Of a stretch of 64,000 bases of DNA, positions 16,415 through 60,310 are shown in pieces. Every line of letters starts with the position of its first letter. The first letter of the stretch is position 1. The position numbers and the translations under genes are program-made. The notes below the pieces were generated by a model that ran no database searches, was not told the origin of the DNA, and saw nothing but the letters and a program-made list of their open reading frames with translations. The stretch comes from Gammaproteobacteria bacterium. GTDB lineage: Bacteria > Pseudomonadota > Gammaproteobacteria > UBA6429 > Thiohalophilaceae. The DNA is taken from assembly GCA_016194635.1 (NCBI GenBank), contig JACQBC010000014.1, forward strand, positions 1-64,000. The letters run 5' to 3'.

Positions 16415-16839
16415 TGGATAATCAACCCTCGCAAACCCACAACGATAACTGCTAACCAAGGTAGCATTGCCTCCAACATAAGCAAAGTGATCCTGATGTT
16501 TGAGTGGAGAAATTAATCCACAGTCACAGCTAACTTATTAATTTTATTATGAAATCGCAGGTTGTGAGTATTCTTTCAGTCTATTGCCAAGAGAACAAGG
16601 ACGGGCCCGGGAGTCGCTCCTGTCATTAAACATTGTTTTTTTCAGCGTCGCTGTAGGAGATCCCCCCGCGACTATTACGTTATAAACACTATCCTTTTCC
16701 CCAGGATTTCAGGTAAACTCCCCACCGTTGCTTGTGTTAAGGTTAATTCAGACGCCCTACCTATGGTCTCCGCCTGGTTCTTATCTTTGTGGTCCGGCAA
16801 TACACTACTGTTAAATAATTTATTTATACGAGGTTTTAC
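16415..16839 (+). promoter_or_regulatory. Intergenic region containing the csp promoter and leader
   Basis: 425 bases without a supported gene, ahead of the cold-shock gene. It carries a well-placed CGAGG site just before ATG 16840 and AT-rich stretches at 16630-16690 and 16810-16830. Cold-shock genes of this class often have long 5' leaders that refold with temperature. The length is compatible, but no transcription start or cold box can be assigned by eye. Confidence 0.35.
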
Positions 16840-17046
16840 ATGAGTACTGGTACTGTTAAGTGGTTTAATGAATCAAAAGGTTTTGGCTTTATCACCCCTT
16901 CCGACGGCGGCAAAGACGTGTTTGTACACTTCAGCGCGATCAAGAGCGATGGCTTCCGCACTTTACAGGAAGGCCAAAAAGTCGAATTTACTATCGAGAA
17001 CGGTCCCAAGGGACCTCAGGCCAGCCAGGTAAAGGTGGCCGGTTAA
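16840..17046 (+). CDS. Cold-shock protein (CspA family)
   Basis: 68 aa, the usual length of a single cold-shock domain. RNP1 (KGFGFI) and RNP2 (VFVHF) nucleic-acid-binding motifs are intact, with the N-terminal TGTVKWFN signature. It acts as an RNA chaperone that melts secondary structure. ATG follows GAGG at 6 bases. It ends in a strong terminator and is thus monocistronic. Which Csp paralogue it is cannot be said. Confidence 0.95.
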
Positions 17047-17070
17047 TCTCTCACAGTAGAATGCTATAAA

Positions 17071-17104
17071 ACACCCCGCGCAAGACGCGGGGTGTCCTTG
17101 TTTT
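17071..17104 (+). terminator. Rho-independent terminator of csp
   Basis: ACACCCCGCG and CGCGGGGTGT (17071-17080, 17086-17095) form a perfect 10-bp stem with a 5-base loop, followed by a T-rich tract ending TTTT at 17104. Confidence 0.9.
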
Positions 17105-39183: not shown

Positions 39184-39234
39184 TTAAAAATAAGGCGGAA
39201 GTTCTGGAAGGGACATGGCGCGGAAGAAAACATC

Positions 39235-39312
39235 GGCTTCCCTACGCCGGTCCTAACCGGGTCAGGTTCGAAGGGTGATATCTCAGCCCGGCTCTCCCAG
39301 GCACCCCTAGCT
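39235..39312 (-). promoter_or_regulatory. TPP (THI-box) riboswitch
   Basis: The minus strand reads GGGGTGCC, then GGCTGAGA, then ACCC-TTCGAACCTGA, and ends ACCGGCGTAGGGAAGC, the conserved blocks of the thiamine-pyrophosphate aptamer in the right order. It ends about 60 bases before the thiC start. With no T-run terminator in that gap, control by sequestering the AGGAG ribosome site when TPP binds is the likelier mechanism, as in other gammaproteobacterial thiC leaders. Confidence 0.93.
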
Positions 39313-39459
39313 ACTCTTTAAGCAAGGTATAGCAATACTCCTGGTTTAGCAAGCGGGGTTGGATAAATGAAATTTATCTTCCCCCAAAATACGCGGCGCT
39401 TGTGATACACCCGCGAACTGCTTAGGCTCTAGGCCTGCAAATCTTATGGATACAACCTC

Positions 39460-49790: not shown

Positions 49791-49893
49791 ATGGTCAACC
49801 CTGACCCAAATCGGATTTGGACCAACATAACTAGTTTTCCTATTCCGCGTTATGTATTAGAAATAGCTAGTCAGGCTTTTACTAATGAGGCGT

Positions 49894-49999
49894 ATGGAAA
49901 GGATACCCCCCACCACGACCGTCCGCCGCAGGGATGCTGCTGTCGAGTCTACAGGGAGGTATTTACGGCGTGTCTTGGTGGGGGGGGGATCCTTTCCAT
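49894..49999. repeat. Palindromic repeat element, copy 1
   Basis: Imperfect arms 49894-49919 (ATGGAAAGGAT, six C, ACCACGAC) and 49972-49999 (its near complement with nine G) enclose a 52-base core. Read on the minus strand, the core contains AAATACCTCCCTGTAGAC and CAGCAGCATCCCTG, related to the cores at 53.2 and 60.1 kb. The right half overlaps the last codons of the minus-strand GT9 gene. Confidence 0.8.
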
Positions 50000-51007
50000 G
50001 TGACTCAGTAATAATACGCTGCTTACGGCGGTATACACGTCATCAACCGCCGGTATCGAACCATCGGGGTTGAACACCGCTTCGTGTAGCGCGTACTTGG
50101 GCCAATAACGGTACGGCACAGTGGAAAAAAATATCCCGACGGTGGAGGTTTGGGCTGCGATCGCCAGGTTACGCACGCCGGTGTCGTTGGCTATCACCAC
50201 CCGCGCGCCCTTGATCAACCCCGTGGTTTCTTCCAACGAGGTGGGTTTTATAGCCACTACATTGGAATAATTGCGCAGTGTTTGCATCATGGGATCGATG
50301 CTCTCCCAGGCCATTACCCCCTGTAAGACAAAGTGGTCCAGCTGCGGATAGGCCACCGCCAGGCGTTCGATCAATTGGGTGTAATGGGCCTGCGGCCAAC
50401 ATTTACTGCCGACCGAGGCGGTTGGGAAATACACCATGTAGGGTTTGTGATGCACACGCGCTGGACCGGGTAAATCAAATACCAAGGGCGCGCGGGGTTT
50501 AAAACCCAGCAGTCTTAACATATCCAGCATGGTCTCGGCTTCAAATTGAAAATCGGAGCGCCATACCACCGCGTCGAAAAACACATAACGTTGCCAGGGC
50601 CGGTAGGGGAATCCGACTTTAAGCTTGGCCTGACTCAATAAGCACAGCCAGTGTGAACGCGTGGTGCTGGCCTGATCAAAAATAATATCCTGTGGGCCCA
50701 GGGCTTGGGCGCGACGGATCTGTTCGCGCACTGACACCTGGCGTTGATCGCTGCCGTACATGGTATGAACCTGGTCCACCAAATCGACCGGGGCACCGTA
50801 GGTGTAGTGACTTACCATGCTCAGGGTAAGCTGTGCATTGGGGAAACAGCGCCTTAACTCCAATAAAAAGGGCCGCAACAATACCATGTCCCCCAAGGCG
50901 GCATGTCGGATCACGGCGACCCGCCGCACCTGCGCCGGTATGAGGTCGGTTATAATCCGTTTGGCCTTCGCCGAGGCCCAGGCGCCGCGCTCGAACCAGA
51001 ATTTCAT
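49949..51007 (-). CDS. GT9 glycosyltransferase (heptosyltransferase family)
   Basis: 352 aa. VAVIRHAALGDMVLLRPFLLELR at the N-terminus and VIANDTGVRNLAIAA with FFSTVPYRYWPKY in the donor domain place it in GT9. A 20-residue N-terminal lead precedes the usual start; ATG 51007 lacks a clear ribosome site. The last 15 residues (ERIPPPPRHAVNTSL) and the stop codon are encoded by a palindromic repeat element, so the native C-terminus has been replaced. The head-to-head gene at 51058 is another GT9. Sugar and acceptor unknown. Confidence 0.8.
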   Translation of the reverse strand: MKFWFERGAWASAKAKRIITDLIPAQVRRVAVIRHAALGDMVLLRPFLLELRRCFPNAQLTLSMVSHYTYGAPVDLVDQVHTMYGSDQRQVSVREQIRRAQALGPQDIIFDQASTTRSHWLCLLSQAKLKVGFPYRPWQRYVFFDAVVWRSDFQFEAETMLDMLRLLGFKPRAPLVFDLPGPARVHHKPYMVYFPTASVGSKCWPQAHYTQLIERLAVAYPQLDHFVLQGVMAWESIDPMMQTLRNYSNVVAIKPTSLEETTGLIKGARVVIANDTGVRNLAIAAQTSTVGIFFSTVPYRYWPKYALHEAVFNPDGSIPAVDDVYTAVSSVLLLSHMERIPPPPRHAVNTSL

Positions 51008-52126: not shown

Positions 52127-53140
52127 CTATTTTGCTATATGCTTAATAGCGATCAATACTTCATCCACTGAAATTCCTTTTAAACAATTGTAGTGTCCAT
52201 AGCGGCAGGTGCGAGCAAAACACGGGCTGCATTCCAATCGATGATAAATAACCTGGGCCCGATCGGTCAGTGGCGGCGTGTAGTCTGGCGTGGAAGAACC
52301 GTAGATCGCCACCACCGGCACACCGGTTGCCGCCGCGATATGCATCAATCCTGAATCATTGGTGATCGCCACGTGGACCAAGGCCAGCAAATCAACCGCG
52401 TCCACCAAAGTTGTTCGTCCACATAAATTACTTACCGCGGGTAGTCCCAGCGCGATTTGGTCTCCAAGCGTTCTTTCTTTCGCGGAGCCCAGTATCCACA
52501 CGTTGTTATTTACCTCCACCAAGCGCCGCGCCAAGTTTCGATAGTATTCAACCGGCCATTGCTTAGCGGGTCCGTATTCTGCCCCCGGCATTAATGCCAC
52601 GATCGGCCGCTGTGTGGTTAAATTCAGTTTCGCTAATAGACCCTGCTGATTGGTCCGATCCACCGTGAGTCGCGGTTTAGCGATCGGTGCTGGTTGTGGT
52701 GTATCCTGGGGATATCCCAGCGCCACAAAACGCTGTACGGTTTGCGTCAGCCGTGACGGATCCATGGGACGCATCTCATTGATCACCCCATAACGCATTT
52801 CACCGCGATAACCGCGGCGTTGCGGCACCCCGGCAAACCATGGAATCAGGGCTGATTTAAACGAACGCGGCAATACAATCGCGAGATCATAGGCTTGGTT
52901 GCGCAATTTCCGCGCCACCCGCCAACGTACTCCCAACCCCAGTTGCTGATGACCTATTGGTAATTCAATGCCGTGGCGCACCTGTGGCATTCGTGCAAGC
53001 AGCGGTAATGACCACGCTGGCGCTGCCACATCGATCAAACATGCCGGGTGGACTTGGTGTAAACTGAGATACAAACTCTGCGCCATCACCATATCGCCGA
53101 CCCAGGCCGGGCCGATGATTAGAATCTGAAATGGGATCAT
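52127..53140 (-). CDS. waaF: ADP-heptose:LPS heptosyltransferase II WaaF
   Basis: 337 aa. It closely follows WaaF: QILIIGPAWVGDMVMAQSL, VAAPAWSLPLLARMP, LPRSFKSALIPWFAGVP, RRGYRGEMRYG, MPGAEYGPAKQWP and TNDSGLMHIAAATGVPVVAIYGSSTPDYTPPL. It adds the second heptose of the LPS inner core. The start at 53140 matches the family; the open frame extends upstream into a palindromic repeat and that extension is rejected. The C-terminus has Cys residues (CSPCFARTCRYGHYNC) common in this subgroup. It lies downstream of hldE and hldD, separated by the repeat. Confidence 0.92.
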   Translation of the reverse strand: MIPFQILIIGPAWVGDMVMAQSLYLSLHQVHPACLIDVAAPAWSLPLLARMPQVRHGIELPIGHQQLGLGVRWRVARKLRNQAYDLAIVLPRSFKSALIPWFAGVPQRRGYRGEMRYGVINEMRPMDPSRLTQTVQRFVALGYPQDTPQPAPIAKPRLTVDRTNQQGLLAKLNLTTQRPIVALMPGAEYGPAKQWPVEYYRNLARRLVEVNNNVWILGSAKERTLGDQIALGLPAVSNLCGRTTLVDAVDLLALVHVAITNDSGLMHIAAATGVPVVAIYGSSTPDYTPPLTDRAQVIYHRLECSPCFARTCRYGHYNCLKGISVDEVLIAIKHIAK

Positions 53141-53201
53141 GGGTGACATACGGGATATTTCGTGGTACGTGCATAAATCTGTTGCTGCGCGATTCGCTGG
53201 T

Positions 53202-53321
53202 AATTCGTGGTGAGGAGGTTCCGGGGCGGTTGTGACACGCACGAATACATCCCTGTAGCTCGGCGGCGGCATCCCTGGCGCCGACGGTCACAACCGCCCC
53301 GGAACCTCCTCACCACGAATT
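53202..53321. repeat. Palindromic repeat element, copy 2 (perfect 35-bp arms)
   Basis: 53202-53236 and 53287-53321 are perfect inverted copies of each other over 35 bases. They enclose a 50-base core with ATACATCCCTGTAGCTCG and a nested GGCGGCGGCATCCCTGG-type hairpin. It lies between hldD and waaF, downstream of the hldD stop by 28 bases. In RNA the arms would form an uninterrupted duplex between these two cistrons. Confidence 0.92.
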
Positions 53322-53349: not shown

Positions 53350-54297
53350 TTACTTTTGTGCTACCAGCCACTGCATATATTCCTTCACACCCTGTTCAAC
53401 CGTCTTAAACGGCTGATCGTAGCCGGCATTGCGTAATGCGCTGATATCAGCCTCGGTAAAACTCTGGTAGCGGCCTTTTAAAGGTTCGGGAAAGGGAATG
53501 TACTCGATTTGGCCATGCCCGTGAACCTTAATCACTGTATTGGCCACGTCGTTAAAAGGCTGGCTGCGGCCGGTGCCTAGATTAAATATTCCGGACCTGG
53601 TTGGATTTTCCATGAACCATAAATTGACGTTAACACAATCGCCCACGTAAACAAAATCGCGGCGCTGTTCGCCGTTGCCATAACCATCACAGCCCTCGAA
53701 TAACCGAGCCTTACCCGCGCTATTAATTTGATTGTTGACATGAAACGCCACGCTCGCCATGCTGCCTTTATGCGCTTCGCGCGGGCCGTAGACATTAAAA
53801 TAGCGGAAACCGACAATTTGGCTTGGTGTGTTTTTCAAATAACGCCGCGCGTATTGATCAAATAAAAACTTAGAGTAACCGTATACATTCAAAGGCTCTT
53901 CGTGCTCACGGATTTCTTTAAAGACACGGCCAGCACCATAAACCGACGCCGATGACGCATACAAATAGGAAATTTTATTATCCATGCAGTAGTGTAATAA
54001 AATTTTGGAGTATTCGTAATTATTTTGCATCATGTAATGGCCATCCCACTCGGTGGTAGAGGAACAGGCGCCTTCATGGAAGATCGCCTGTACTTTGCCG
54101 AACCGCTCGGCGTTTTTTACCCGGCGTAAGAATTCTTCTTTATCCAAGAAATCGGCGATTTCGCAGTCGGCGATATTTTTAAACTTTACCCCGTTCTTAA
54201 GGTTGTCGACCACAATGATATCGCGTTCACCACGCGCATTGAGTGTTTTTACAATATTACTGCCGATAAACCCGGCGCCGCCGGTGACTATGATCAT
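53350..54297 (-). CDS. hldD: ADP-L-glycero-D-manno-heptose 6-epimerase HldD
   Basis: 315 aa short-chain dehydrogenase-fold epimerase. NADP-binding GGAGFIGSN at the N-terminus, SSASVYG and the catalytic YGYSK (Tyr-x-x-x-Lys), plus [11 protein letters not shown]. It converts ADP-D-glycero- to ADP-L-glycero-manno-heptose, the last step of heptose donor synthesis. It starts 65 bases after hldE on the same strand. The waaF gene that uses its product is downstream. Confidence 0.96.
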
Positions 54298-59949: not shown

Positions 59950-60058
59950 ATGTAACGACAGCTTAGCGCACAATAACGATCCCGAGGACAGTGTGCACGA
60001 AGGGCTATCTATAACCCTACACAGCGGTATTGATTGATTTGCATCGTTTACGAACGGC

Positions 60059-60252
60059 GGCAACGCAGCAGGTCATGTTCGCTTCTACAGAGTACGCATA
60101 AATACCTCCCTGTAGCTCGGTGGCGGGGGGCCCTGCCACAAAGTTATTATGTGGCAACGCAGCAGGCCATACCTTCCTGCCGCATGGCCGTCGGCGGCAG
60201 GAACGTATTTATGCGTGTCATGCAGCAGGAAGGTATGGCCTGCTGCGTTGCC
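60059..60252. repeat. Nested palindromic repeat element, copies 3 and 4
   Basis: An arm GGCAACGCAGCAGG.CAT occurs at 60059, again at 60153 and inverted ending at 60252. The last two form arms 60153-60186 and 60219-60252, complementary at 33 of 34 positions with a perfect 28-bp outer part. Cores lie between: 60094-60140 (plus; AATACCTCCCTGTAGCTCGG) and 60187-60218 (minus; CACGCATAAATACG). A small TGCCACA/TGTGGCA hairpin joins them at 60134-60155. The block is between the glnE start and the usp terminator. Confidence 0.88.
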
Positions 60253-60310
60253 GCTTAGATATTTTAGGGTGGATTAGCGAACAAACCCAATGGATCTGGA
60301 TATTTACCAC

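Follow-up and report, generated by a model that had tools for sequence, protein, structure and literature searches.

An inverted-repeat element between HldD-type and WaaF-type genes

The 64-kb window, i.e., the whole stretch of 64,000 nucleotides that was analyzed, contains a palindromic element at 53202-53321, lodged between two minus-strand genes: an upstream one for an NAD-dependent epimerase of the HldD/RfaD type (53350..54297) and a downstream one for a glycosyltransferase of the WaaF type (heptosyltransferase II; 52127..53150). Both genes come from the ORF list and were named by sequence inspection; the end of the WaaF-type gene is approximate, and because the longer ORF enters the element, its true start probably lies around 53150. 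As an earlier note on this DNA had described, two arms of 35 nt (left, 53202..53236; right, 53287..53321; plus strand), the right being the exact reverse complement of the left (100% complementary), enclose a 50-nt spacing. The left arm is a private sequence, unlike the arms of other copies in the same genome. The conserved core with its closing stem (GTGAC...GTCAC) occupies 53232..53291 on the minus strand and is matched by model R1 (78 bits, E = 3.3e-17). On that strand it reads GACCGTCGGCGCCAGGGATGCCGCCGCCGAGC TACAGGGATGTA and forms two hairpins, each with the hexaloop AGGGAT: the top of hairpin 1, GCCAGGGATGCC, lies at 53268..53279 (loop 53271-53276) and was assigned from the fold and from loop conservation, and that of hairpin 2, TACAGGGATGTA, at 53246..53257 (loop 53249-53254), was assigned likewise and fits the SELEX consensus of CsrA, RUACARGGAUGU (PMC7652899).

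Folded as RNA, the whole element forms a long stem leading to a three-way junction (z about -12); for the core by itself, the predicted stability does not exceed that of its shuffles. At the gathering threshold Rfam has no match to the element, and a permissive search yielded just sub-threshold hits attributable to the long stem. An intrinsic terminator was dismissed because the arm has no T-run behind it. Elsewhere in the window, Rfam matches a cspA thermoregulator (16708-17099, plus strand, 81.6 bits) and a TPP riboswitch (39222-39318, minus strand, 67.9 bits).

Dispersal of the core

The core recurs in the window near the two places named earlier, about 49.95 and 60.1 kb, and the arms there are indeed unrelated to those at 53202-53321. 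The first is a copy (49880..50013, plus strand; core 49915-49976) with the ends TACTAATGAGGCG and CTCAGTAATA and shared arms, whereas the second (60057..60254, no strand assigned) is rearranged, with scrambled half-cores within nested inverted repeats whose arms are 16 and 28 bp. Such a scrambled arrangement of two half-cores could be the residue of a template switch gone wrong. In the congeneric genome G001, the orthologous gap next to glnE is about 340 bp shorter.

Genome-wide, the core was found 40 times by DNA search and 150 times by a covariance model, the latter figure being the number of matches scored, nearly all of them strong. Testing the flanks of these hits for self-complementarity recovered arms at many copies, contrary to the prospect that no further copies would exist: the first 30 copies fetched all have arms of 27-49 bp, mostly perfect. 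Arm scores are about 25-49 in most observed copies, as against at most 9 for shuffled flanks. Core copies are present in 22 of the 58 genomes searched, the genome under study included, and their distribution is very uneven (59 in G007, 62 in G012, 61 in G029, and 0 in many others); the plasmid collection searched gave no match. Model R1 also matches G044 and G050, from other families of the class (L071 and L079; E = 3e-16 and 2e-10), the former locus having perfect arms of 26 bp; these sequence matches beyond the family point to a core that is widely spread.

Shared and private arms

Reading the arms of 115 distinct copies in the genome under study separates them into several classes. Subfamily A (48 of 115) has common arms and ends of the form TACTAATGAG(GCGT or TCAC)ATGGAAAGGATACCCTCCCACC and measures about 135 bp overall; the copy at 49880-50013 belongs here. 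In one of its members (L144) the arms seem to run a few bases past the shared TA end, possibly reflecting outward growth of the palindrome. Among the 59 non-A copies with clear arms, 29 are of the B type (GTTGGTGGTTGCC...) and another four fall into two pairs; the remaining 26, among them the element at 53202-53321, have arms matching no other copy. Despite this diversity between copies, the arms are perfect within 31 of the 59, average 34 bp, and have only 46 unpaired columns in 2035. Arms common to copies also occur in G012 (young copies, GCATCAGGACCAGAGGTCTTTTACATGAC) and G007 (GCCC...TTTCGTGAC). The proposal that arms are private to each locus thus holds for about 26 of the 59 non-A copies and fails for subfamilies A (48) and B (29); conservation of arms across copies, which had been named as grounds for calling this a normal MITE, is true of the commoner form of the family, with a private-arm minority remaining.

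Copies of subfamily A are bounded by TA at either end, and in G012 the element is framed by CTA...TAG. These termini suggest that TA may be duplicated at insertion; at about 70-80% identity, the relatives compared do not resolve the target to the base. The catalytic domain of IS630-type transposases (DDE_3) is absent from the genome under study and from nine of ten relatives, with only fragments in G023, and the name IS630-type MITE was accordingly dropped. The genome under study likewise has no match to Y1_Tnp (PF01797), removing an identity with REP/RAYT elements; searches with these two domains identified no partner transposase.

Concerted change of the two arms

In G012, about ten copies differ from the family arm consensus in both arms alike. 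The mirrored changes include A>T (L094), A>C (L103, L106, and L107), and insertion of a C (L096), none of which can be reached through a G-U intermediate; differences that are not mirrored occur in three copies (L098, L104, and L105). Differences between G007 copies are likewise found in both arms. Five positions tell the left end of subfamily A from the right one, and these are converted as an uninterrupted tract extending outward from the core, with few mixed patterns: 16 copies are unconverted (LLLLL/RRRRR), 12 are converted at three positions (LLRRR/RRRRR), and four at four (LRRRR/RRRRR), giving at least two conversion boundaries. Because the copies share ancestry, these conversions are not independent events, and the many shared subfamily A states may descend from few conversions. 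The core is furthermore inverted relative to the ends in several copies of G012 (L089, L098, L100, and L101) and of subfamily A (L138, L148, L157, and others). Of some 2035 arm columns outside subfamily A, about 1% are G-U pairs, and the pairing of the arms is therefore of the Watson-Crick kind.

Template switching between inverted repeats has been reported to yield both homogenization of arms and inversion of the spacer (PMC8604942), and it can keep hairpin stems paired (PMC8794818). Both outcomes are found in this family, and the mirrored transversions and indel, the block conversions, and the flips of the core between ends support the earlier suggestion that arms are corrected at each site.

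Core loops resembling paired CsrA/RsmA sites

Across about 150 copies the core loops have the form A-N-G-G-A-N closed by a C-G pair, with the A, G, G, and A and the closing pair nearly invariant. The N positions have changed 6, 6, 22, and 58 times, and the A, G, G, and A positions 2, 0, 7, and 1 and 7, 1, 6, and 2 times in the two loops; changes at the second G are nearly always to A. The pattern is that of the CsrA/RsmE consensus ANGGAX, a hexaloop on a stem with positions N and X free; in the published structures (PMC4005645), both of these positions are variable and looped out. A single CsrA dimer binds optimally to two sites separated by more than 18 nt (PMC7652899), and the GGA motifs of the core are spaced by 20-21 nt. 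CsrA is encoded in the genome under study, and the core hairpin stems covary. A GNRA-tetraloop interpretation of the loops was discarded, AGGA, TGGA, and CGGA loops being common.

Relative to neighboring genes, the GGA strand has no bias (21 tandem copies sense, 19 antisense), and loops are no better preserved in one orientation than in the other; neither result is what a CsrA site acting at the mRNA level would lead one to expect. That the core by itself folds no better than its shuffles also counts against the proposed role. The elements lie in 29 convergent as opposed to 8 divergent intergenic regions, thus avoiding divergent promoter regions. We put the likelihood that the core binds CsrA at a little under one half.

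A second core type in G001

G001 harbors elements with a different core, which also has two GGA hairpins and is surrounded by private arms. One of its GGA hairpins has a five-base loop, as do SL3 and SL4 of RsmZ (PMC4005645). Cores of this type are absent from the genome under study and nine other relatives searched. Five of the 11 G001-type elements share their intergenic gap with a copy in the genome under study, namely at waaF-hldD (the 53202-53321 element), folA-gloA, and the sites of L155, L018, and L004; four of these five copies are arm singletons, L004 pairing in arms with one other copy of its genome. The arms at the five sites are unrelated between the two genomes, orthologous cores (55-64% alike) resemble each other no better than non-orthologous ones do (57%), as compared to about 80% within a genome, and the orientation is the same at three sites and opposite at two. 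At L018, one intergenic gap holds two oppositely oriented elements, and G001 has one there. Such shared sites could represent either old elements whose cores evolve in concert or independent insertions at favored sites. In an extended reading, the copies with private arms would be old elements inherited vertically at fixed intergenic sites, with cores evolving in concert within each species and arms that are completely replaced yet stay perfect, and together they would form a dispersed, mobile network of paired CsrA sites (a genome-wide sponge); this strikes us as rather unlikely. In G001, a perfect 23-bp palindrome with the 12-nt loop CGCTTTTCGCTC (L252:132-189) looks like a G001-type element from which both hairpins were deleted.

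Proposed origin of the element and alternatives

We consider it reasonably probable that 53202-53321 is an old member of a MITE-like family of dispersed palindromic repeats, with arms corrected by template switching and a core kept as a CsrA site. Copies of the family have the plan arm-core-arm, to which young subfamilies add short common ends on the outside. During replication, a strand bearing the palindrome would fold back and the polymerase switch templates between the arms. An arm would thereby be resynthesized on the model of its partner, which would erase a mutation or give it to both arms and could leave the spacer inverted. Over the long term, the arms would drift to unrelated private sequences while retaining their perfection, and the core would be retained as a paired CsrA/RsmA site, making the element a mobile CsrA site or decoy.

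The arms could instead be created at insertion, either by copying the flank as an inverted duplicate or by entry of the core into a pre-existing palindrome, as the earlier note also entertained. This is attractive for the roughly 26 copies here and at least seven in G001 (L238-L243 and L246) that combine unrelated arms with similar cores: the best three G001 cores are 94-97% identical, so that either the turnover of arms far outpaces that of cores or some arms are made anew, the latter being improbable in our estimation. It also accords with the folA copy (L166), whose reading frame enters the element arm and ends VVLQRVIDHRSRPVR, as against QRENIR in G001; judging by these frames, the element replaced the last codons of the gene. 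Nevertheless, copies of A, B, G012, and G007 have common arms, and long palindromes without the core are almost absent. The 316 kb of sequence fetched from the genome under study contain 86 long inverted repeats, every one of which encloses the core (counting L129, with the variant loop CAGGAATG, missed by the word test), and the 64-kb window, which samples the genome without bias, has no long inverted repeat that lacks it, leading us to reject insertion into a palindrome. Generation from the target is further disfavored by the lnt-leuS site, where an element with 39-bp arms is present here and the empty orthologous site of G001 aligns straight across with the sequence of neither arm, which at about 70% identity is good though imperfect evidence. 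Hence, the arms probably belong to the element rather than being made from target DNA, and we deem their creation at insertion improbable.

Selection on an RNA stem alone, acting through ordinary compensatory substitutions and not through copying of DNA, would explain the covariation of the core hairpin stems and a weak excess of G.U over A.C mismatches on the GGA strand (23:11 in non-A copies, p = 0.06; 55:33 overall, p = 0.02; the copies are not independent). The rarity of G-U in the arms contradicts it, as do the mirrored transversions and indel, the block conversions, the core flips, and the lack of sense-strand bias, making it a decidedly poor prospect. Still less credible, indeed very improbable, is an ordinary decaying MITE family in which private arms merely mark old copies and no special correction operates: subfamily A, with its common ends starting with TA, does resemble a normal MITE, but decay predicts mismatched arms, whereas private copies are perfect or nearly so, and the mirrored changes oppose it too. 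For the core only, a DNA-level signal, e.g., a cruciform or single-stranded hairpin for a transposase or nucleoid protein with coincidentally CsrA-like loops, would fit the lack of strand bias, the preference for convergent over divergent regions, and the tolerance of core flips. The close correspondence of fixed and free loop positions to CsrA/RsmE, recurring in the unrelated G001 core, and the absence of a Y1 transposase from the genome weigh against it; we judge it somewhat unlikely, with an appreciable chance of being correct, and it is compatible with template switching in the arms.

Comparison with known systems

Bacterial MITEs, such as those of the RUP, Correia/NEMIS, and ERIC types, are short, non-coding, dispersed, intergenic elements with inverted repeats. 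Our element is similarly short, non-coding, and intergenic, with about 150 dispersed copies and inverted repeats, and its common ends (starting with TA in subfamily A; CTA...TAG in G012) are likewise MITE-like; dispersed non-coding copies with common terminal inverted repeats are what we found in A, B, and G012/G007, though not in the roughly 26 private-arm copies. It differs in that arms diverge between copies while being perfect within each, in that the core rather than the termini is conserved, and in that no matching transposase of the DDE_3 or Y1_Tnp kind was found. With REP/BIME elements and REPINs it shares a palindromic structure, an intergenic location, and avoidance of divergent promoter regions, but its stems are much longer, and the Y1 (RAYT) transposases of those systems have no counterpart in this genome. 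The suggested kinship to the palindromic repeats of gammaproteobacteria is reasonable as architecture; a Y1/REP transposase is absent.

CsrB/RsmZ-type sRNAs resemble the core in their paired ANGGAX-loop hairpins on stems, with its GGA spacing of 20-21 nt; unlike them, the element is a dispersed repeat with very long stems, no Rfam match, and no strand bias. If the core does bind CsrA, the family would exemplify how binding sites for a global RNA regulator can be disseminated by a mobile element.

The coding palindromes of Nematomorpha mitochondria are reported to be long perfect inverted repeats, as here, but mitochondrial and inside genes (PMC6649704). They are not known to have a conserved core. 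The closest parallel in process, quasipalindrome correction by template switching (PMC8604942, PMC8794818, PMC7202029), has the same arm homogenization and spacer inversion, but has been reported at single loci, genes, and RNA stems, and is generally deduced from isolated events. Here it would act on a high-copy repeat family, with over 100 copies in one genome and more in other genera. These offer many parallel records of mutations present in both arms, block conversions, and inverted spacers, from which one could estimate rates and the ends of conversion tracts; they also caution that covariation of the compensatory kind does not by itself imply selection on RNA when seen in a hairpin.
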